NCBI RefSeq assembly: GCF_000156355.1
Contig: NZ_GG657906.1
Span: 148,248 to 212,247 of the forward strand
From: Methylophaga thiooxydans DMS010
GTDB lineage: Bacteria; Pseudomonadota; Gammaproteobacteria; Nitrosococcales; Methylophagaceae
Direction: 5' to 3'
DNA length: 64,000 bases
Shown here: positions 4,410 to 42,396 of the stretch, piece after piece
Layout: each line of letters starts with the position of its first letter
Position numbering within the stretch: position 1 is the stretch's first letter
The notes under the pieces: generated by a model
Database searches by the model: none
What the model was told of the DNA's origin: nothing
Seen by the model: only the letters and a program-made list of their open reading frames with translations
Program-made: the position numbers and the translations under genes

Positions 4410-5570
4410 TTACAGGCTGGCTTCGAGCACTTTACGACTTTTATCTAAATCGACATCTCCGTGTTCACCGAGCTGGTTCAGGCCATGTTCACCAAGTTGC
4501 TTGATCATGGTGGGAATCGCATCAGCAGGAATTTGATAATCGCTTAATCGCGTTTTCACGCCCATTTGTTCAAAGAAATCACGTGTTTTGGTAATGGCCA
4601 TGTCGATACGGCTGTCATCATCACCATCAGTAATGTTCCAGACACGTTCTGCGTATTGCAGTAATTTGTCGTGTTTGTGTTCACGCTGTTCTTGCATGAT
4701 GCTGGGCAGGATAATCGCTAATGTTTGAGCATGGTCTAAACCATGTAATGCAGTTAGTTCATGACCAATCATATGCGTCGCCCAGTCCTGTGGTACGCCT
4801 GCACCGATTAAACCATTAAGGGCTAATGTCGCTGTCCACATAAAGTTTGATTGCAAGGTGTAATCAGTAGGCTTTTCCAATAATTCGGGACCCGTCTCGA
4901 TAAGCGTTAATAGCAAGCCTTCGGCAAAGCGGTCTTGTACTTTGGCATCGACGGGATAGGTCAGATACTGCTCCATGATGTGGGTATAGGCATCAACAAT
5001 ACCGTTGGCTAACTGTCTTGGCGGTAAGGTGTAGGCTTTTGTTGGATCCAAAATTGAAAACTCGGGATAAACCAATGGACTCTTAAACGCCAGTTTTTCT
5101 TTCGTTTGATAACGGGTGACGACTGAGTTGGCATTCATTTCTGAGCCGGTTGCTGGCAGGGTTAACACTGAACCAAACGGTAGTGCTGTGTGTATGTCTT
5201 TAGCACTATTTACCAGAATTTCCTGCCATGGGTCGCCTTCACAATTCACGGCAGCCGCAATGAACTTGGTGCCATCAATGACAGAACCACCACCCACAGC
5301 CAGTAAATAATCCAGCTTATTGTCTTTAATCTGTGCAACTGCACGCATTAATGTGGTGTAACTCGGGTTCGCTTCAATGCCACCAAATTCTTCGGAATAG
5401 CGTGAGTTCAAAGCAGCAGTGACCTCATCAACAGTGCCATGTTTTTTCGCGCTTTGCCCCCCGAAGAGAATTAAAACGCGGGCGTCTTTAGGAACCAATT
5501 GGTCGATTTCTTTGATTTGTCCTTCGCCGAAAACAATACGGGTAGGATTAAAAAAGTTGAAATTATTCAC
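4410..5570 (-). CDS. yqhD: Iron-type NADPH-dependent aldehyde reductase (YqhD family)
   Basis: 386 residues of the iron-containing (type III) alcohol dehydrogenase fold, beginning NNFNFFNPTRIVFGEGQI as YqhD proteins do. The dinucleotide-binding GGGSVIDGTKFIAAA and LPATGSEMN loops are present. Metal ligands are visible in NGIVDAYTHIMEQ (Asp, His) and WATHMIGHELTALHGLDHAQ (His, His). E. coli YqhD reduces short aldehydes such as methylglyoxal, malondialdehyde and acrolein with NADPH. It is the first gene after the 77-nt gap holding the upstream operator, so the four structural genes probably share a promoter here. Aldehyde detoxification in the cytoplasm is the best-supported role. Confidence 0.87.
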   Translation of the reverse strand: MNNFNFFNPTRIVFGEGQIKEIDQLVPKDARVLILFGGQSAKKHGTVDEVTAALNSRYSEEFGGIEANPSYTTLMRAVAQIKDNKLDYLLAVGGGSVIDGTKFIAAAVNCEGDPWQEILVNSAKDIHTALPFGSVLTLPATGSEMNANSVVTRYQTKEKLAFKSPLVYPEFSILDPTKAYTLPPRQLANGIVDAYTHIMEQYLTYPVDAKVQDRFAEGLLLTLIETGPELLEKPTDYTLQSNFMWTATLALNGLIGAGVPQDWATHMIGHELTALHGLDHAQTLAIILPSIMQEQREHKHDKLLQYAERVWNITDGDDDSRIDMAITKTRDFFEQMGVKTRLSDYQIPADAIPTMIKQLGEHGLNQLGEHGDVDLDKSRKVLEASL

Positions 5571-5595
5571 GGGTAATCCTTAATTAGTAATTTAA

Positions 5596-5610
5596 TAGAC
5601 CAGTCGTCTA
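5596..5610. promoter_or_regulatory. NemR-like operator upstream of yqhD
   Basis: Perfect inverted repeat TAGAC-CAGTC-GTCTA between the regulator gene and yqhD. The same 15 bases, plus flanks giving 19 identical bases, recur at 6272-6286 in front of the regulator itself. From memory, the E. coli NemR box has similar TAGACC/GGTCTA arms. Confidence 0.8.
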
Positions 5611-5647
5611 GTTTTTAGGCAAATAAAAAGCCTCGTGGACGTTGAGA

Positions 5648-6259
5648 CTAAGGCAAATTGAGTCGAGCGTGTAGCGCGTTCATTGCTACCTCTAGGGCAC
5701 TATGATCACGATTGACCTTAGTCAGAAGTGTCGCGCCAATCCAGAGATAATAAATTTCTTCTGTGACAGTTTGTGCATCACCGTCGATTTCTATTTCTTT
5801 GTTATCGATCGCTTCCTGAACACAGTCAGCCAAGCGATTGATAATGCGGTTCGTGCCTTGCTTTAAGGCAAGCCGCATGGTTTCAGACAGATCAGTGACT
5901 TCACCACTAATCTTTACAACCAGGCATTTGTCGGTTGTGGTGTCGTTGCATTGGCTATTTTTCCAGTTGCCAAAGAAGCGGAGAATTCGCTCTACAGCTG
6001 ATGCGCCGTCATTACGCAACTTTTCATCCAGAAGCAGCATGTACTGATCAAAGTAATTTTCCAGCAGCGCGCTACCGAAATGCTCTTTAGAGTCGAAGTA
6101 ATGATAGAAGGAGCCTTTCGGTACTCCAGCGGTTTTGAGAATTTCATTCAAGCCGACCGCAGCAAAGCCTTTACCCAAAATAATGGTTTGGGCAGTGCTT
6201 AAAATATGTTGTCTTGTGTCGCTAGAGCGAGAACGAGCTGCTTGATTCATGGTGTGCAT
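5648..6259 (-). CDS. nemR: TetR-family electrophile-sensing repressor (NemR-like)
   Basis: 203 residues. The N-terminal helix-turn-helix contains GLNEILKTAGVPKGSFYHYFDSKEHFG, almost the NemR signature. The ligand domain has KCLVVKISGEVTDLSETMR, equivalent to the E. coli NemR segment that carries the redox-active Cys106; here it is Cys112, with a second Cys at 104 matching NemR Cys98. NemR is a repressor released by electrophiles, hypochlorous acid and methylglyoxal through these cysteines. One copy of its palindrome lies 13 bp before its start codon (autoregulation) and one before yqhD. Met4 is an alternative start; neither start has a strong ribosome-binding site. Confidence 0.85.
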   Translation of the reverse strand: MHTMNQAARSRSSDTRQHILSTAQTIILGKGFAAVGLNEILKTAGVPKGSFYHYFDSKEHFGSALLENYFDQYMLLLDEKLRNDGASAVERILRFFGNWKNSQCNDTTTDKCLVVKISGEVTDLSETMRLALKQGTNRIINRLADCVQEAIDNKEIEIDGDAQTVTEEIYYLWIGATLLTKVNRDHSALEVAMNALHARLNLP

Positions 6260-6271
6260 TGTTTCACAGAA

Positions 6272-6286
6272 TAGACCAGTCGTCTA
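6272..6286. promoter_or_regulatory. NemR-like operator upstream of the regulator gene
   Basis: Second exact copy of TAGAC-CAGTC-GTCTA, ending 13 bp upstream of the regulator's start codon, so bound repressor would block its own transcription. It lies about 190 bp from the divergent doe operon start. Confidence 0.8.
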
Positions 6287-6476
6287 GTGATAATTTATTC
6301 ATGACCTCAGCATGATAAATATTTAGATCACAAAATATTGGAACAAGCCTTGCTTGGTGTTAGTCTGAGGGTGAAAGCGGCCTTATCTAGGCATAAATAA
6401 ACCGATTCGGGTGCCATGGCGCTTTTCCAAGTTCACTATATGCACTAATTAGGTGCATGTAACGCAAGGGGGCAAG

Positions 6477-7637
6477 ATGGGCGACATCTGGCAACAGGCG
6501 ATTGAAAACGCGCAGCAACTGCGACGTAATTTACATCAGCATCCGGAGCTAGGCTGGAATGAAGTTCGTACGGCTGAGCTGATTAGAAATGAACTAACGC
6601 AACTGGGTATTATCTGGGAAGCCTGTGCCGAGCTTGGTACCTTAGCCAGACTTAATCCTAATGGTGTAGGACAACATATTGCTTTAAGAGCGGATATGGA
6701 TGCCTTGCCAATTATCGAGCAAACCCATCATCAATGGCGCTCGTCACACGAGGGCTGTATGCACGCCTGTGGTCACGATGGCCATACCGCAACCCTACTT
6801 GCTTCAGCGCGTTGGCTGAAATCTGTTGAAACCCAATTACCCGGTCCGGTGACATTATTATTCCAACCCGCAGAAGAAGGCGGCCATGGTGCACTCAAAA
6901 TGATTGAGGATGGCGCTTTGGAGGGTATCGATTTTATTTATGGTTGGCATAACTGGCCGGCAATTCCCTTTGGAAAGATAGTTTGTCCTGATGACATCGT
7001 CATGTGTGGCAATGGCACTTTTACCATTACATTAGTAGGAGAGGGGGGGCATGCCAGTCAGCCTGAGTTGTGCCGTGATCCTGTTCTTGCAGCCAGTGCG
7101 GTCACCCTCGCTTTACAACAAATTGTAAGTCGCCATATTGCACCTCAACAGCCAGCGGTAGTAAGCGTCACATCTATTGAAGCACCGAGTGGGCCGACAG
7201 TTATTCCAGCAAAAGCGGTGTTGGCTGGCAGTATCCGTGTGCCAGACAAAACAACACGTGAACAAATCAATCAGCTGATTACGACGATTAGTCGCCAAAC
7301 TGCCGCGGCTTATGGCGTGGAATGCGAGGTTGAGATTTTCCCTCGTTACGAAGCCACCATTAATCATGCCGAGCACGCCGCCATTGTCAGACAGCAATGG
7401 CAGCGTGATAACGGCGCTGACAGCTTGGATAATCAGATCCGTGTACCCGTGATGGCATCAGAAGATTTCAGTTACTACTTACAACACATACCGGGTGCCT
7501 TTGCCCTGATTGGTGCAAATGATGGGCCTGACCATCAAGCGGTCTGCCACAGCCCGTTTTATGATTTTAATGATCGACTAATACCTGTTGTTACCCGTTT
7601 GTATGCGCGCTTGGTCGGTGCGCCTATAGCAGAATAA
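6477..7637 (+). CDS. doeB: M20-family amidohydrolase, likely N-acetyl-diaminobutyrate deacetylase of ectoine catabolism
   Basis: 386 residues from the ATG at 6477, chosen because AAGGGGG lies four bases before it; an in-frame ATG eight codons upstream lacks such a site. M20 amidohydrolase motifs: LHQHPELGWNE, ADMDALP, MHACGHDGHTA (metal Cys and His), PAEEGGHG (catalytic Glu), YGWHNWP and ASEDFSYYL. Family members remove acyl groups from amino acids. It is the first gene of a four-gene operon with ectoine hydrolase, diaminobutyrate transaminase and a semialdehyde dehydrogenase, which supplies the predicted substrate. Classical DoeB of Halomonas is an AstE-type enzyme of a different fold, so the doeB role is inferred from context. 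Confidence 0.7.
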   Translation: MGDIWQQAIENAQQLRRNLHQHPELGWNEVRTAELIRNELTQLGIIWEACAELGTLARLNPNGVGQHIALRADMDALPIIEQTHHQWRSSHEGCMHACGHDGHTATLLASARWLKSVETQLPGPVTLLFQPAEEGGHGALKMIEDGALEGIDFIYGWHNWPAIPFGKIVCPDDIVMCGNGTFTITLVGEGGHASQPELCRDPVLAASAVTLALQQIVSRHIAPQQPAVVSVTSIEAPSGPTVIPAKAVLAGSIRVPDKTTREQINQLITTISRQTAAAYGVECEVEIFPRYEATINHAEHAAIVRQQWQRDNGADSLDNQIRVPVMASEDFSYYLQHIPGAFALIGANDGPDHQAVCHSPFYDFNDRLIPVVTRLYARLVGAPIAE

Positions 7638-29042: not shown

Positions 29043-29249
29043 TTACAGCGCAGTAATGTTTTCAGCTTGTGGACCTTTAGCGCCTTGAGTTACAGTGAAC
29101 TCAACACGTTGGCCTTCGTTCAGCGTTCTGAAACCGTCGCCTTTGATTTGGCTAAAGTGTGCGAAAACGTCTGGGCCAGATTCTTGCTCGATGAAACCGA
29201 AACCTTTAGCTTCGTTAAACCATTTCACAGTACCAGTAGTTGTAGACAT
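29043..29249 (-). CDS. Cold-shock protein (CspA family)
   Basis: 68 residues, the normal size. RNP1 (KGFGFIEQ) and RNP2 (VFAHFSQI) are intact, with the start [16 protein letters not shown] and the end [11 protein letters not shown]. An OB-fold single-strand nucleic-acid chaperone that melts RNA structure; CspA, CspC and CspE cannot be separated by sequence alone here. The long AT-rich region upstream of its start could hold the extended leader common in cold-inducible csp genes. Confidence 0.92.
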
Positions 29250-29962: not shown

Positions 29963-32752
29963 ATGAGCATGGAGCATACGCAGGATTTTATGCCGCATGG
30001 ATATTGTATTTCTTGGGATGTGCCGCTACTCACATTGCATGTTTTGTCAGACTTTTTCATCGCCTTAGCGTATTTTTCAATTCCGGTTGGCATTATTTAT
30101 TTCGTCAGTAAAAAAGACGATGTCACCTTTAAACCTGTTTACTACCTTTTTGCAGCTTTTATCTTAGCCTGCGGCATTACCCACCTCATGGGCATCATCA
30201 CTCTATGGTTGCCTGTGTATTATTTGGCAGGCGTTTTTAAATTATTGACTGCAATTGTTTCGGTCGCGACGGCGATTTATCTCATCCCTAAACTCTCAGA
30301 TATGGTGGCTTTACCGGAGCTCAATGAGCTCCTGTTACTGAATAAGAAATTGACCGATGAAAACCAGTCCAGAAAAAAAGCTGAAATGGCGCTGGAGCAA
30401 AGCAGGACGAAACTGGCTGAGACCAATAAAATGCTATCAACCGTTTTGGATGCTATTCCGGTACGTGTTTTTTGGAAAAATCATGATCTGGAGTTTCAGG
30501 GCGTAAATCGCGTATTACTTGAAGACGCGGGTATGAACGATGTTTCAGAGATCATCGGTAAAACAGACTACCAGCTGCCATGGGCGGATTTCGCAGATAA
30601 ATATAAAAAGGATGATAAAGCCGTACTAGATAGCGGTAGATCGATGCTGCAAATCGAAGAAGAGTTAGTGGATAGAAACGGAAACCGCTTGTGGGCTAAA
30701 ACAAACAAAGTGCCTTTACTTAATGATAAGAATGAAGTCATTGGTGTGCTCGGTACATTTGAAGACATAACGCAGGCCAAAATAGCTGAGCAGGAACTCA
30801 TTGTTGCTAAAGAGCAGGCTGAACAAGCGAATATTGCCAAGAGCCAATTTTTGGCGAACATGAGCCATGAGTTACGAACCCCACTTAATGGCGTGATAGG
30901 TACACTCAATTTGTTAGCTGCAACATCGCTAAACGCTCGCCAAAGTAATCTGGTAAATATAAGCAAGCACAGCGCCGAATCCTTATTTGGCTTGTTAAAC
31001 GATGTGTTGGATTTGTCCAAAATCGAATCAGGCAAGTTAGAGTTGGAATATCACAACGAAGATCTTGATGAATTACTGGCAGAAGTAGCCAGAGGCATGG
31101 CAGGGCGTGCTGAGGAGAAGGGTCTGGAATTACTTTGTCCCGCTCACTTTATGTCCTCCTGTGTGGCCAAAGTCGATCGTTTACGTCTGCGTCAGATCCT
31201 GAATAATCTGATAGGTAATGCGCTTAAATTTACAGAAAAAGGCTCGATTACTGTCGATATGACGGTGATCAAAAAAACGATGCCTGAGGCGACATTACGC
31301 TTTAGTATTTCAGACACTGGCGTAGGAATTAGTGAGCACGATCAAGCCTTATTATTTGAACGGTTCAAACAATTGGACGGCAGCTCGACTCGGCCACAAG
31401 CAGGTAGCGGACTCGGACTCGCGATCTGCAGACAATTGGTTGAGCTTATGGGTGGGCGAATTGGTGTAAGCAGCACACTGGGTCAAGGCTCGACATTCTG
31501 GTTCGAAATAACGACTGAACTGGTCAACCGCAAAGGTCAACCACACCAAGATTCGTCACTTGCTGGTATGAGTGTGATTGTTTTAGCCGAAAACCCCACC
31601 TACAAACGTTACTTTGCAGATCTTCTTGCTAACTGGAGCGTACAACACGAAATCGCCGATTCAATCGATCTATTTAAAGAAATCTTATTTGAACACCATC
31701 ATGATCAGACTTGTGTTTTGATTATGGAAACAGATTATTTCTTAAACCTTGATATCACCGCGCTTTTGTCTCAACTCACGTTTGATGTGCGATTTCTATT
31801 GATGACATCGCAAAGTCAATTAACACAAGTGCCTGAAAAAACACAGCAACACGATTGTATTTTATTGGCTAAACCGCTTATGCAATCTGAAGTATTCAAT
31901 GCGTTGGTGGGATTACGTAATGATATGCCAACGAAACAGTTACAGCAGCCAATCAAACCAGTTGAAAATGCTCAATTCAAAGATAGAAAAATTTTATTAG
32001 TTGAAGATAACAGTACCAACATCATTGTGGCGAAAGGGCTAATTCAAATGTATGGACCAACGGTTGAGGTCGCCGAAAATGGGGAACTCGCGCTAAACAT
32101 CCTGAGCAAACAGCGCTTTGATCTGATCTTTATGGATTGTCAAATGCCGGTTATGGATGGCTATGAGTGTACCCGTCTGATCCGCTCAGAAGAAGCATCT
32201 GTAATCAATCACCGTATTCCTATCATTGCTTTAACTGCGAATGCGATGCGTGGTGATAGAGAGGCCTGCCTTGCCGCCGGGATGGATGATTATATTTCCA
32301 AACCGGTTGATGCGGATACGATTCATCAAATGTTGAAAAAATGGTTAGCTCAGGAAGATATCACTCAAGGAGAACTACCGATAATGGATGAATCATTAGA
32401 AAGTACAACGCCCGTATTTGACAAAGCAAACTATAGCAGTCGACTGATGGATGATGATAATTTGATGAAGCAAGTTGCGCTTAACTTTGTGGCAGATATG
32501 CCGCAACAGCTGGAAAAACTCAATGAAATGATTGCGTCAGAAGATTATGAGCAACTGGCAGCACAGGCACATAAGCTTAAAGGTGCCGCATCAAATATGG
32601 CTGCAGAACAGATGCACGATCTGGCTGTTGAATTTGAACTGGCTACCAAAGAGCACGTAATGGAGAGGGTAGCGGCCCTTTATCCGATGCTAATGCAGGC
32701 ATTTGACCAACTGCGAGATGAGTTGGATAAAGAATTGGGGCTAGACACCTAA
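29963..32752 (+). CDS. Hybrid histidine kinase with ethylene-receptor-like (ETR1-type) sensor and HPt domain
   Basis: 929 residues. The N terminus (about 20-110) has three membrane helices closely resembling the plant/cyanobacterial ethylene-binding domain: [14 protein letters not shown], then CGITHLMG. Asp30, Tyr37, Ile67, Cys70 and His74 match ETR1 Asp25, Tyr32, Ile62, Cys65 and His69; the Cys/His pair binds the copper that holds ethylene. A PAS domain (about 150-270), HisKA (His302 in [11 protein letters not shown]) and HATPase domain (about 350-520) follow. Then come a pseudo-receiver lacking the acidic pocket (about 530-650), a true receiver (Asp725 in [11 protein letters not shown]), and HPt (His870 in [11 protein letters not shown]). 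A multistep phosphorelay. It precedes the CHASE kinase gene by 42 nt. Confidence 0.88.
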
Positions 32753-32794: not shown

Positions 32795-35700
32795 TTGAAA
32801 CAATTAATTGGTAATTATTCAAAGCATCCGCCCGCGGCGTGGTTAGTGCTATTGCTTTCGTTAATGGTTACCGGTTGGGCGTGGTTTGTCGCCTCTGAGG
32901 CGGTACAGCAACGTGCCAGTGAACGTTTTGAGTTTACGGCTAGTGATATCTCTACTGCGATTAGCAAACGCATGAATGAATATGAACTGGCACTACGAAG
33001 CGGACTCGCGGTGTTTCATGCAAGCGATTCGGTTACTCGAAAAGATTGGGAATATTTTGCTGATACGATCTATCTCAACAAATTTTTCCCCGGTATTCAG
33101 GGGCTTGGCTATAGTGTCATGCTCGCCCCTGAAGAAGTCGCAGCACATGAGTCGGCAATCCGGCAACAAGGTTTCGACAATTACCAGATAAGGCCCGAAG
33201 GTATTCGTGAGCAATACAGCGCGATTATATTTTTGGAGCCTTTTGATTGGCGTAACCAACGTGCGTTTGGCTATGACATGTTTTCTGAACCGACCCGTCG
33301 TGAAGCAATGGAGCGAGCTCGTGATACGACTGACTTTGCTGCATCAGGGCGAGTGACTTTAGTTCAAGAAACAGAGCAAGACGTCCAGTTTGGTTTTCTC
33401 ATGTATCTACCGTTATATAAGAAAGGTAGCCCGCTCACCTATGTTGAAGAGCGCCGTGAGGCATTACAAGGCTTTGTTTACGCCGCATTTCGGATAGGCG
33501 ATTTGATGGCTGGTTTATTGGGTAGTGCTCAGCAAAACGTTAACTTTGAATTATATGAAGGGAACCCAGAAAAGGGTGTAATGTTGCACAACAACGCGCC
33601 GAATAATGTTGTTCACTATAACTCACCAGATAGCGAAGACAGTTTTAAAGCAACCCATAAGATTGATGTCGGTGGTCAGACATGGTCATTGTATGTCTAT
33701 TCTGATACAGGGTTTATTTCACAGAGTGAGTTGAATCAGCCAACATTTATCGTTGTGACGGGCATTTTGCTTGATATCTTTCTCTTTTTTCTGATTTCTT
33801 ATTTAGCTAAAGGGCGAAATCAAGCACGGGTATCAGAACAACGCGCTATCGTTGATTTTCAGAATTCACAACAGCGACTTCAGCTTGCAGCTGATGCCGG
33901 TAATATGGGACTGGCAGAATGGAACCTCGAAGAGGGTAAGCTCTATTGGGACGATCGCATGTTGGCGCTTTATGGTTATACCCAGGGTACGTTTGATGAT
34001 GGTATGGCTGCTTGGCAGCAGCGCGTTCATCCTGAGGATCAGGCCGAGGTCATCAAGCAAGTTGAAACGGCGCGTCAGTTCAAACAGCATTTTGATTTGC
34101 AATTTCGCATCGTCTTACCGAGTAAGGAGATTCGACACATTGCAGCGAGTATTGTCGTAGAGCGCAATAGGACTGGTCAGGCTGTTCGCATGGTTGGCTT
34201 TCATTACGATATTTCAGAGCACAAACAAGTCGAAGCCATTCTCAAAACAGAGCGCGATGATGCTGAGTCTGCAAATCGCTCACGAGGCGAGTTTTTAGCC
34301 AATATGAGCCATGAAATTCGCACGCCGATAAATGGTGTTATGGGCGCGATGAATTTATTAGCTGATACGCCGTTAAGTGCATCTCAGCACAATCTATTAA
34401 ATATTTCTAAACGTAGTGCAGAGTCACTGCTCGGCATAATAAATGACATTCTTGATTTATCGAAAATTGAGTCTGGTAAGTTAGAAATAATTGAAGAAGA
34501 AGTCGCTTTAGTTAACACCCTTTGCGATGTGGCGCGTTTACTTTCTGCCAAAGCAGAATCAAAGCATATCGAATTACTGTGTCCTGCCCACTACCTTGAT
34601 GAGGTTAGCGTTAAGGTTGATGGTTTGCGTCTGCGTCAGGTTCTGACCAATCTGTTGAACAATGCGATTAAGTTTACTGAGCAAGGTAGTGTCAAATTGA
34701 GTGTTGACGTGTTGAGCCAGACATCAGACAAACTAAAACTTCGCTTCAATGTGGTTGATACAGGACAAGGTATAGCTGCCGATCAACAAGCCTTATTATT
34801 TCAACGCTTCCAGCAAGTTGACAGCTCCTTAACACGACGTGAAGGAGGGTCGGGCTTAGGGTTATCGATCAGCAAACAATTAGTCGAACTGATGGGTGGC
34901 ACCATTGGCGTAGAAAGTGAACTCGGCATAGGGTCAAGGTTTTGGTTTGAGTTAGACCTTATGAAAGCAACGCAAAATCAACCGATTAAGCGACGTCTAT
35001 TTGATGATATGCAGGTTTGCGTTCTGAAGCCAGAGGAAATCTACCAACATTTTTATACATCCGTATTTTCTGCTTGGGATATTGCTCATACACAGACCGA
35101 TGACTATAGTCAGGCATTAGAGACGTTGAGCTCATCGGCATGCCCCAACAAAGTCTTGATCGTTGATGCGACTTATTTAAATGACAAGGCATTAATTGCT
35201 AATCTGGCGGCAACCACGGATAAAATGCACAACATTTATTTATTCGTCGTTTGTCCACAATCGATGCTAGCAATGATTCCACAGGTGGTGACTGATCAGG
35301 CAGATCAGATTATCAGCAAACCGCTCATACAATCTGAACTCTATAACGCATTCTTATCCGTAGTGGCTGAAAATGTAGAAGAAAATATCATGGAGCAAGC
35401 GCCTGTAGCGGAGTCATACAAACAGTTTAATGCCAATGTTCTGGTGGTTGAGGATAACACGACTAATATTGTCATCATTCAAGGCCTGCTGAAGAAATTT
35501 AATGTCACCACGGATGTTGCCGAAGATGGCGAGCAAGCACTGAATTTATTGGCAAAAAATAATTACGATTTAGTCTTGATGGACTGTCAAATGCCAGTGA
35601 TGGACGGCTTTGAAACGACGCGAACAATTCGCAAAGCGGATAGCGATATTCTGAATAGAGAAATACCGATCATTGCGCTCACTGCACAGGCAATGCGCGG

Positions 35701-35830
35701 TGATGAAGCCGCTTGTCGCGAAGCAGGCATGGATGATTATTTGAGTAAGCCGATTGAACCGCGATTGTTGTACGACAAGTTAAGCAAATGGCTGCCCGAA
35801 GCAGGTAAAGATCAATTAGCATCGTTATAG
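32795..35830 (+). CDS. CHASE-domain hybrid histidine kinase
   Basis: 1011 residues. The start is TTG at 32795, preceded by AGGGA; no ATG fits before the first membrane helix (about 12-32). A periplasmic CHASE domain (about 75-260: [18 protein letters not shown]...[11 protein letters not shown]) is closed by a helix at about 308-335. A PAS_3-like domain (about 355-475), HisKA (His506 in [11 protein letters not shown]) and HATPase domain follow. Then come a degenerate receiver and an intact receiver (Asp930 in [11 protein letters not shown]). There is no HPt here; that of the neighbouring kinase may serve. CHASE domains sense small extracellular ligands. Probably co-transcribed with the ETR1-like kinase gene. 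Confidence 0.87.
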
Positions 35831-36949: not shown

Positions 36950-38020
36950 ATGTGGCGTTTAATTCATTACTGTTTGCTGCTAATGTTGGCTGTTAGCGTG
37001 ACCGGTTGTGATCCATTTGCATCGCCAGACTCAATGATGGATGAGTATTTGAGCCGACTAGCTCGGGTATTGAATGTTGAGAAACAACAAACGGCACTTG
37101 AACCGATTCGATTGATTCCAAGCGTGCGTGATCGCCGTGCTGAAATACCCAAGATTGATATTAGTGTGCTTGAGTTTTTGTCATTGTATGGCTGTGAGTT
37201 ACAGGTTGTGGTGGCAGAGCGTAATTCGATTTTGGGGCGTGTGATGTCCCCGTTAAACCGTTTGCGTTATAACTTACGTTTTATCGCAACGGCCCAAGAA
37301 TGTTTAGCTAATACTGATAAGCCAGCGCTAAAGCACAGTCTGCAGCAAGCCATTGAGCAAAAACAACAACTACTCTCCTCAGTTGCCTGGAATGCAGTAT
37401 GGGCTGGTGAGCCGATGGCTGCATTATTGAGCGTTTCTAAAGGTTATTACCTTGCTGATACCCATCATGTGACAACGTTAGGTCGCTTAGTTGCAGGGCT
37501 TGAGAAAACACGGGCTATCCTCACACAACTGCAAAGCGAAGCGATTGATGCCGACTTGACCGAGATGGGCGACATTCAGCAGCAATGGACATTTGGCCAT
37601 CATGCAGGCCAGTTATTGAATAGCGTGACCATGCTGACAACGCGGTTGGAAGATGCGACTGCCTTAATAGAGCAACGATTGCATGTAAAACCATTGTGTT
37701 ATAAGTCGAAGTCAAACCCACACGCTGAGCGAGTAAAAGGCGTGTTTTTCAATGTTTATATAGGTCGAATACAACCGTATCTTTCTGAGGTCAGTCGTGC
37801 AGGAAAACTGGTGTTCGGTGAGTTGGATAAGATAGCGTTAGCACAAGCTTCCATAATGCCTGCAGGTTTCAAATCGTATCATTTAGATGTCATTAGCATG
37901 ACAAATAAAAACGGTGTTTGGCAGCAGTTTGATAAGGCGATGACTAGTCATACAAAAAGTTGGCAGGCATTATTGGAACAATGTGGTATGCAGCCACGTG
38001 CCAGTCAGTCGCTTAGTTGA
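36950..38020 (+). CDS. DUF3080 lipoprotein
   Basis: 356 residues. The signal peptide ends in the lipobox VTGC (about Cys20), with Asp at +2, which usually retains a lipoprotein at the inner membrane. The mature part is all-helical and contains PRDRRAEIPKIDISVLEFLSLYGCELQ-like sequence and RNSILGRVMSPLNRLRYNLRFI, typical of DUF3080, a gammaproteobacterial family of unknown function. The ATG begins one base after the cupin stop. The 3' end overlaps the convergent diguanylate cyclase gene by 16 nt. Confidence 0.8.
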   Translation: MWRLIHYCLLLMLAVSVTGCDPFASPDSMMDEYLSRLARVLNVEKQQTALEPIRLIPSVRDRRAEIPKIDISVLEFLSLYGCELQVVVAERNSILGRVMSPLNRLRYNLRFIATAQECLANTDKPALKHSLQQAIEQKQQLLSSVAWNAVWAGEPMAALLSVSKGYYLADTHHVTTLGRLVAGLEKTRAILTQLQSEAIDADLTEMGDIQQQWTFGHHAGQLLNSVTMLTTRLEDATALIEQRLHVKPLCYKSKSNPHAERVKGVFFNVYIGRIQPYLSEVSRAGKLVFGELDKIALAQASIMPAGFKSYHLDVISMTNKNGVWQQFDKAMTSHTKSWQALLEQCGMQPRASQSLS

Positions 38021-39015
38021 TTTTGAACCTGGTTTTTACCTGCGCGTTTGGCAGTATAGAGAATTTTATCTGCTTTGTTTAAGCCAGATAAAACAGTGTC
38101 TAGCGGGGTTAGTTGGCAGACGCCGATGCTAACGGTTATGCCGACCTTTTGCTGCTGGGTATGAAAGAAAATATTGGCGACTTTTTCTCGAATTCGCTCA
38201 GCCAGTTCAACGGCTTCAGTTTGTTTGGTTTCTGGTAGCAAAATTGCAAACTCTTCACCGCCAATCCGACCGAAAATATCATAGCTGCGTTTTATTGCCA
38301 TAATACCGTGACAAAACAGCTTGAGTACTTCATCACCGACTTCGTGGCCAAACTGATCATTGATCTGTTTGAAATCATCAATATCAAGCATCAATAAACA
38401 CACTGGATGTTCATTACGAACGGCGCGTTGTAATTCTTTTTCACTTTCAGCAATAAATGCGCGACGGTTCCAGATATCAGTCAGTTCATCAGTATTGGCA
38501 AGGTATTCGAGGTTTTTAGACAGATTTTCAAGCTTGAGGTTTTTTTCAAGCAGTTCGAGATTGACTTCAATCATATTACGAAACTGAACCATTAAGCGTT
38601 CTTGCTTATCGGTATATTGGTGCGCTTTTGTGTCCAGTACGCACAGGGTGCCGAAGATATCACCATTGGGCCAGTGGAGTGGGAAACCGAGGTAGTTCAC
38701 TAAATTGAATTCAATATCAGGGTTATTGCACCACTCATCACTTTCAAGTGCATTGTTGACGAAAAGACGTTGATTCGTGTTGATGACGCGCTCGCAATAA
38801 AGGCCAGAATTATGGCATCTGTCTGTATCGCCGACATTGAATGGGTTTAAGCTGGATTCGTTTTTAGCAAAGACGGTGAACTCGTCTTTTGTCAGGCTCA
38901 TTATCAGGGCAACAGGCACTTCCATAAACTCGGCAAGTATCTCAAGGATACTTTGCCACTCGACGAGCAATGTCTCTCGGACCTGTGGATGCGGTGCGAT
39001 TGTTTTATTTGTCAC
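38005..39015 (-). CDS. GAF-GGDEF diguanylate cyclase
   Basis: 336 residues, soluble. A GAF domain (about 20-160: WQSILEILAEFMEVPVALIMSL...FGTLCVLDTKAHQYTDKQ) is linked by a helix to a GGDEF domain (about 180-335). The active site is GRIGGEEFAILLP, an accepted GGEEF form. RSYD five residues before it is an intact inhibitory I-site, so product feedback is expected. The enzyme makes c-di-GMP from two GTP. A perfect FNR box lies about 84 bp upstream of the start, pointing to oxygen-responsive expression. Confidence 0.9.
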   Translation of the reverse strand: MTNKTIAPHPQVRETLLVEWQSILEILAEFMEVPVALIMSLTKDEFTVFAKNESSLNPFNVGDTDRCHNSGLYCERVINTNQRLFVNNALESDEWCNNPDIEFNLVNYLGFPLHWPNGDIFGTLCVLDTKAHQYTDKQERLMVQFRNMIEVNLELLEKNLKLENLSKNLEYLANTDELTDIWNRRAFIAESEKELQRAVRNEHPVCLLMLDIDDFKQINDQFGHEVGDEVLKLFCHGIMAIKRSYDIFGRIGGEEFAILLPETKQTEAVELAERIREKVANIFFHTQQQKVGITVSIGVCQLTPLDTVLSGLNKADKILYTAKRAGKNQVQNQLSD

Positions 39016-41412: not shown

Positions 41413-42396
41413 ATGAAAGTTTTAATTGTTGATGATGCTGAAATTGATACATTATTGTGTCAAAAAATTGTTGAAAGTCTCGGCTATACTCCTATTACCG
41501 TGTCTTCTGCAGTAGAAGCGCGCGAGCTACTTAATCAGGATGGAGCACCTGATATTATTATTCTTGACTGGATGATGCCGGAAATGGATGGCATAGATTT
41601 ATGCAAAATCATCCGCCGCTCACGACTCATTATCGAGCCATTTGTATTAATAATGACGGCCAACTCAGATCGTCATGCAGAAGCAGAAGCACTGAATGCC
41701 GGTGCTGATGATTTTATCTCAAAACCGGTTAATCGAATCGATTTAGAGGCAAAATTAAAGCTAGGTCGACGACTGATAAAAACCCAATTAGAGCTTTTAG
41801 TAGCCAATCAGCGCCTGAAGGAAAAGCTTGAGTTTGATTCTGTGACGGGACTGATGAGTCGACAAGCCGGATTGCATGCAATTGTGGCTGCCTTATCGCG
41901 GTTATCACGACAGCAGCATCAAGAAGGGCTTTTTATTCACTGCCTCATTCGCTTTAGCAGTAAGCAGCAACATCATTTGAAACATGATTTGTTGGATAAA
42001 ATATATTTTGAACTCGCCAGTAATCTGACCGAGGCGCTGAGACAAAGTGATGTGATGGTGCGCTTTAAAGACGATGAATTTTTATTTTTTGCCGAAAGTG
42101 ATTCAGATAGCCATCAAATTGTCTTATCACGCGTTGAAAAGGCGATTCAGAAAAATAATATCAACAGCTATGACACAGCACTTGAGGTTGCCACCTTGGT
42201 GGCGGGGTTAGTTGTCACTTCAGAGCAGGCATTGACATCCGTTCCGGTGTTATTACAAAACACAGAAGAACTTTTGTCACAGCTAACCGCGACACACAAA
42301 ACTATTGGTCTGAGTTACCTGGGTTCCAATAAAAACCCAGCAAAAATACTGGATTTTACGCGATTCAGAAAAACAAATTTCCCTCATAAATCTTGA
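41413..42396 (+). CDS. Response regulator with degenerate GGDEF domain
   Basis: 327 residues. The receiver domain (1-120) is complete: acidic pair DD7-8, phospho-Asp52 in IIILDWMMPEMDG, Thr in LIMTAN, Lys in FISKPVN. The C-terminal half has a GGDEF-like fold, but the signature is VRFKDDEFLFFAES, KDDEF instead of GGDEF, so cyclase activity is not expected; it may bind GTP or a partner. It lies 200 nt upstream of a GAF hybrid kinase on the same strand, a possible cognate. Confidence 0.82.
   Translation: MKVLIVDDAEIDTLLCQKIVESLGYTPITVSSAVEARELLNQDGAPDIIILDWMMPEMDGIDLCKIIRRSRLIIEPFVLIMTANSDRHAEAEALNAGADDFISKPVNRIDLEAKLKLGRRLIKTQLELLVANQRLKEKLEFDSVTGLMSRQAGLHAIVAALSRLSRQQHQEGLFIHCLIRFSSKQQHHLKHDLLDKIYFELASNLTEALRQSDVMVRFKDDEFLFFAESDSDSHQIVLSRVEKAIQKNNINSYDTALEVATLVAGLVVTSEQALTSVPVLLQNTEELLSQLTATHKTIGLSYLGSNKNPAKILDFTRFRKTNFPHKS

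Follow-up and report, generated by a model that had tools for sequence, protein, structure and literature searches.

Whether a marine bacterium that feeds on C1 compounds carries a receptor for ethylene is the question raised by this locus. In the window, by which we mean the whole stretch of DNA analysed (64,000 nucleotides), an open reading frame beginning with an ATG at position 29963 encodes a hybrid histidine kinase with an N-terminal ethylene-binding-type domain (EBD), hereafter the EBD kinase (Table 1). The domain scores 119 bits against the ETR1_N profile (PF25487; cut-off 27 bits, E 1.1e-34) and is the only match in its own genome (3,047,652 bases, 94.7% complete), and the profile gave zero matches in 14 control genomes. 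A sequence-only reading had listed PAS, HisKA, HATPase, a degenerate receiver, an intact receiver and HPt after the sensor, an order with which Pfam and alignment agree. The receiver-like stretch aligns with the intact receiver, keeping KP and reading AEN instead of EDN, and its phospho-acceptor site, read by eye, has MET instead of MDC and so contains no aspartate. HisKA, HATPase, receiver and HPt, the set used in a multistep phosphorelay, are present within one chain. The same reading had spoken of a methylotroph, a description that fits the nearest relatives, members of the marine genus Methylophaga, and also the genome, in which four PQQ alcohol dehydrogenases score above the NCBIfam cut-off. 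From the sequence evidence set out below, the EBD kinase is probably a bacterial receptor of the ETR1_N type that responds to ethylene (olefin).

Table 1. Features of the EBD kinase gene and its downstream neighbour (positions in the window; aa, residue numbers in the EBD kinase)
Feature	Position	Strand	Basis and remarks
EBD-PAS-HisKA-HATPase-receiver-like-REC-HPt hybrid kinase, 929 aa	29963..32752	+	ORF list, Pfam
PHGYCISW (PHGxCxxW motif), aa 11-18	29993..30016	+	predicted periplasmic, directly before TM1, outside the Pfam model
ETR1_N ethylene-binding-type domain, three TM helices, aa 22-116	30026..30310	+	D30 Y37 I40 P41 I67 C70 H74, K93
PAS_4 domain, aa 162-273	30446..30781	+	Pfam, over cut-off
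HisKA, aa 292-357	30836..31033	+	Pfam, over cut-off
HATPase_c, aa 405-517	31175..31513	+	Pfam, over cut-off
Receiver-like stretch without phospho-acceptor Asp, aa ~529-660	31547..31942	+	alignment; no Pfam match
Intact receiver (Response_reg), aa 677-791	31991..32335	+	Pfam, over cut-off
HPt domain (Hpt), aa 841-920	32483..32722	+	Pfam, over cut-off
CHASE-PAS-HisKA-HATPase-(receiver-like)-REC hybrid kinase, no HPt	32795..35830	+	Pfam, alignment; nearest paralogue of the EBD kinase core

The seven ethylene-binding residues of ETR1, a set whose membership and numbering reportedly go back to Wang et al. 2006, are all present in the EBD kinase as Asp30, Tyr37, Ile40, Pro41, Ile67, Cys70 and His74, which we take to be the ETR1 positions shifted by +5. 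Asp30, Tyr37, Ile67, Cys70 and His74 were found exactly where the earlier reading had placed them; the constant offset of +5 that it gave holds for the seven pocket residues but not in helix 3, where Lys93 presumably corresponds to ETR1 Lys91 at an offset of +2. Among 58 aligned strong members (the 12 of 70 rows scoring under 108 were left out, the profile was seeded on sequences already carrying the PHGxC motif, and near-copies are included), the complete set of seven is kept in 44, with Tyr37, Cys70 and His74 in every row, Ile67 in 57 and Asp30 in 54. Over the same 58 rows, the conserved positions cluster on one face of each transmembrane helix (permutation p = 0.0008, 0.0022 and 0.0006), and the pocket residues fall at most 61 degrees from that face. 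Such invariance of the Cys/His pair would also suit a sensor of Cu(I) availability, in which the kinase follows the copper loading of Cys70 and His74 and ethylene is incidental. Against this very unlikely reading, the pocket residues that are not copper ligands (Tyr37, Ile67 and Asp30) are kept as well, and the femtomolar affinity of ETR1 for Cu(I), given in the available text of PMC6586836, is probably too tight for graded sensing.

Asp30 is paired with Lys93 in 54 of the 58 rows, the remainder reading Asn–Asp (two rows), Glu–Lys (one) and Glu–Leu (one). In both Asn–Asp rows (L029 and L115, whose kinship is not settled by the EBD tree) the change of Asp30 to Asn comes together with that of Lys93 to Asp, a charge swap between helices 1 and 3. 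For plant receptors, a salt bridge between this Asp and a conserved Lys has been proposed from an AlphaFold model, and substitution of the Asp by Asn cuts the affinity approximately 100-fold, according to the accessible part of PMC13012798. The Asp–Lys pair survives in four of five rows in which the pocket has decayed, so that its role may lie in the fold and not in ligand binding, and our confidence in an ethylene receptor is slightly reduced for this reason.

Homology to a proven binder was found in a plasmid search, which located the EBD in 18 records, seven of them from Azospirillum. A replicon of A. brasilense Sp7 (L126) encodes at 4971-6545 a protein of 525 residues, the end of whose gene is overlapped by a response regulator ORF, and we identify this protein as AzoEtr1 because both properties match the description in PMC11819568. 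In the available text of that paper, the first 130 residues of AzoEtr1 bind 14C-ethylene saturably, and little or no binding is reported in disrupted strains. The EBD of the Methylophaga kinase is identical to that of AzoEtr1 at 56 of 115 aligned positions, which, together with the profile match and the seven residues, upholds the core of the sequence-only reading, an ethylene-receptor-like sensor on a phosphorelay kinase. Like AzoEtr1, the EBD kinase has the seven residues, the PHGxC motif, and an EBD followed by PAS and histidine kinase; unlike AzoEtr1, which is accompanied by a separate response regulator gene, it carries the receiver-like stretch, the receiver and HPt in the same chain. 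Ethylene binding by AzoEtr1, which shares the seven residues (PMC11819568), argues further against copper as the signal.

SynEtr1 (slr1212) of Synechocystis is likewise a bacterial ethylene receptor kinase using a phosphorelay (PMC11819568, PMC7700396), but has an extra GAF photosensor and signals to slr1213, differences that we take from its description alone in the accessible part of PMC7700396. Plant ETR1 shares the offset pocket residues, the three transmembrane helices and the hybrid kinase layout with the EBD kinase, and differs in having a GAF domain and receiver (PMC6586836). Ethylene perception outside plants and cyanobacteria had been called little studied at the outset; it is indeed little tested, yet the phrase is an overstatement, since the proteobacterial forms have been reviewed, with EBD proteins in many proteobacteria and cyanobacteria and wide-ranging outputs (PMC7700396, as far as available), and the one from Azospirillum is proven. 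The EBD kinase is a convincing further member of this already described bacterial family. A literature search on Methylophaga and an ethylene receptor returned one review, which deals with a different topic, and we know of no ethylene-binding or copper measurement for any Methylophaga protein.

Cu(I) binds pi-acceptors generally, and the copper site could serve another pi-ligand, such as CO, acetylene, or a small alkene (propene, for example), coming from sunlit seawater or from C1 metabolism. Photochemistry of dissolved organics yields hydrocarbons and CO in seawater, according to works cited in PMC6682694. However, the EBD kinase has the full set of seven residues on which ethylene binding depends (PMC11819568; PMC6682694, both in their available parts), just as the proven binder AzoEtr1 does, and the scanned genomic context holds no pointer to CO or alkene metabolism, which makes a different ligand unlikely. 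An ethylene receptor would place the sensing of this gas in a C1-feeding genus, and its source could, at a guess, be algae, other organisms, or sunlight acting on dissolved organics; a role in reporting copper status would be a guess of the same kind.

In the AlphaFold model, which is of modest quality (pLDDT 77.9, pTM 0.52, residues 1-14 below 50), three transmembrane helices (residues 20-50, 57-82 and 86-115) are followed by a coiled coil, and the lysines of the TM1–TM2 loop suggest that the N-terminus lies outside. A PDB sequence search with the first 130 residues returned no match up to E 1, and the best Foldseek match of the model, an F-BAR domain, was discounted as not significant (E 0.63). 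We propose that a membrane homodimer would hold Cu(I) on Cys70 and His74 inside the bundle of helices 1-3, where ethylene would diffuse in and bind the copper. The ensuing change would travel via the helix-3 coiled coil and PAS to the kinase and alter its autophosphorylation, in one direction or the other, and phosphate would then pass from the HisKA histidine to the receiver aspartate, to the HPt histidine, and finally to a separate response regulator. Five relatives with a decayed pocket (L053, L054, L081, L082 and L083) would be in keeping with a three-helix domain that is now a mere membrane anchor and dimeriser, leaving PAS and the phosphorelay to carry the signal. Pocket and motif are nevertheless intact both in the EBD kinase and in the three other genomes that encode its counterparts, and we consider an anchor-only role scarcely credible here.

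The motif, PHGYCISW in the EBD kinase, directly precedes TM1, and the Pfam profile begins after it; in bacteria, PHGxCxxW presumably stands in place of the ETR1 N-terminus. Among loci scoring at least 97 bits, found by the Pfam profile alone and not representing independent lineages, PHGxC is present in 46 of 46 and the complete PHGxCxxW in 45, the exception being a locus in G012 where an in-frame stop takes the place of the Trp codon. That locus, an EBD-GGDEF gene (L042 / L015), is either a pseudogene or a sequencing error. The motif counts cover 59 of 64 distinct Pfam-found places from the genus, class and phylum searches; the other five are L102, a strong match that carries the motif, and four weak ones under 36 bits. 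Both pocket and motif are altered in the five matches of 78-92 bits, which are the pocket-decayed members named above, and the complete motif is absent from all eight matches under 50 bits. Three cyanobacterial members (L022, L127 and L129) have PHGxCxxW, and among strong members, proteobacterial ones and these three, PHGxC varies no more than the copper ligands do. Four of the five pocket-decayed members are without the motif Cys, and three of these four are also without the His. The motif of L082 (= L107) is changed in Pro only (AHGxCxxW), with His and Cys retained. L081 (row L106), with pocket changes of Tyr to Phe and Pro to Ala, still has Cys and His (CGFNH), although the pattern C..[TSA]H counts it as lost.

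The conservative reading of PHGxCxxW is a disulfide or structural cap. Plant receptors have two N-terminal cysteines and cyanobacterial receptors one, which may do the work of the plants' two disulfide cysteines (PMC6682694, in its available text). A more specific, rather doubtful reading is that the motif forms a His/Cys cap in the periplasm, where it would pick up Cu(I) and pass it on to Cys70 and His74, and is not only a dimer disulfide; such a copper-loading cap might conceivably replace, in bacteria, the dedicated copper delivery of ETR1. This reading is slightly weakened by the pocket-decayed member that keeps the motif His and Cys. An invariant periplasmic PHGxC could also scavenge copper for a Cu(I) sensor. 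We found no paper on an N-terminal motif written as PHGHC. The motif is a simple target for mutagenesis, which could reveal how bacterial receptors obtain their copper.

Of 24 Methylophaga genomes, 14 have an ETR1_N match over the cut-off, as do 12 of 369 genomes in a class sample and 31 of 397 in a phylum sample that overlaps the former. Ten genus genomes are without a match (four of them 55-83% complete and one 85%), which indicates that the EBD is not general to the lifestyle. Each of the 14 EBD-positive Methylophaga genomes has one match, belonging to the kinase form in four (G000, G002, G004 and G005) and in the remaining ten to a form with a GGDEF output (L033-L042; two of ten assigned by Pfam, all ten by phmmer). 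No genome has both, a pattern that is not significant alone (chance 0.094, for 4 and 10 of 24 with kinship ignored), and some of the assemblies are incomplete (G002 85%, G005 89%). Like the EBD kinase, the EBD-GGDEF proteins have the seven residues (10/10) and the motif (9/10, the tenth cut by the stop), and GGEEF with an upstream RxxD is found in nine of ten (the tenth is L036). They differ from it in their diguanylate cyclase output, their genomic positions and their separate EBD lineage.

In a tree of 62 EBD rows (score at least 85, identical ones removed; 110 columns), the nine distinct GGDEF rows group together (100/99), with a kinase EBD from another family as their sister (99/98), and the four Methylophaga kinase rows form a separate clade (98/93) with L103 as the nearest row (81/76). 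A constraint joining all 13 Methylophaga rows in one clade was rejected (p-AU 0.023). This is moderate evidence, limited by the few columns and the unsettled bootstrap, that Methylophaga acquired EBD receptors twice, separately. That one genus apparently acquired two receptors separately, each with its own output, suggests that sensing ethylene has been under selection, and the pair offers a natural comparison of a phosphorelay with direct c-di-GMP output. The phage records gave no EBD match; an IMG/VR contig (L130, 65 kb) encodes an EBD relative of 39% identity at 6001-6309. The Blastomonas plasmid pBSY18_2 (L128), mobilizable and from an algal phycosphere isolate, carries an EBD kinase beside an integrase and is a possible route of transfer.

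The kinase gene occupies the same genomic place in all four genomes, with an MscS-type channel and an SDR gene upstream, and is followed by DUF1223, cupin and DUF3080 in three, the contig of the fourth ending there; the GGDEF genes are located elsewhere. Around three GGDEF forms (L035, L037 and L040), the 19 distinct neighbouring proteins scanned have housekeeping or unrelated functions, apart from a TonB-dependent receptor. The latter adjoins the EBD-GGDEF gene in three of the ten genomes (L040-L042). A TonB-dependent receptor in this place might fit a copper sensor, but the neighbours that were scanned, around the EBD kinase as around the GGDEF forms, include no recognisable gene for copper or ethylene.

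As for the EBD kinase itself, its kinase core appears to have a local origin. Within its own genome, the core (residues 255-660, including the receiver-like stretch) is nearest to the adjacent CHASE kinase (45% identity, 335 bits; next paralogue 194 bits), and it is closer to this neighbour than to the L103 kinase (321 versus 231 bits). The two genes therefore seem to be tandem duplicates with different sensors, the EBD having been added to one of them or exchanged for its earlier sensor. The same tandem is present in G005; in G004 (L020), neither a neighbouring CHASE kinase nor an HPt was found. The CHASE neighbour has no Pfam HPt match and, speculatively, might use the HPt of the EBD kinase. 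Its CHASE domain (219.6 bits) matches 6k62 and the cytokinin receptor AHK4 (3t4j). We take the cytokinin-ligand residue of AHK4 to be Asp262, including its place in the 3t4j chain; in the alignment to 3t4j that position reads Arg in the neighbour, as it does in 6k62. We do not claim paired ethylene and cytokinin receptors, as the AHK4 Asp seems to be Arg here and CHASE ligands vary.

The genes immediately adjoining the EBD kinase gene include no separate response regulator, and the genome holds seven HPt stretches. A diguanylate cyclase (GAF-GGDEF, intact GGEEF) is encoded at 38005-39015 on the minus strand. A counterpart occupies the corresponding position in G004 and, judged by eye from the first residues, in G005; the contig of G002 stops short of this point. 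Since this cyclase is kept in place and the relatives use GGDEF directly, it is a reasonable guess that the EBD kinase controls surface or motile life via c-di-GMP. A REC-GGDEF-like regulator, with a receiver and a degenerate GGDEF (FKDDEF), is encoded at 41413..42396 on the plus strand, and its close orthologues (E under 1e-100; 23 of 24 genus genomes searched) are confined to G013 and the four genomes that encode the EBD kinase. We did not adopt it as the target, because G013 has the orthologue though no EBD match, the gene lies beside another hybrid kinase, and its motif is degenerate. A small cold-shock-like ORF, read by eye, lies at approximately 29043-29249 on the minus strand, between the SDR gene and the EBD kinase gene.
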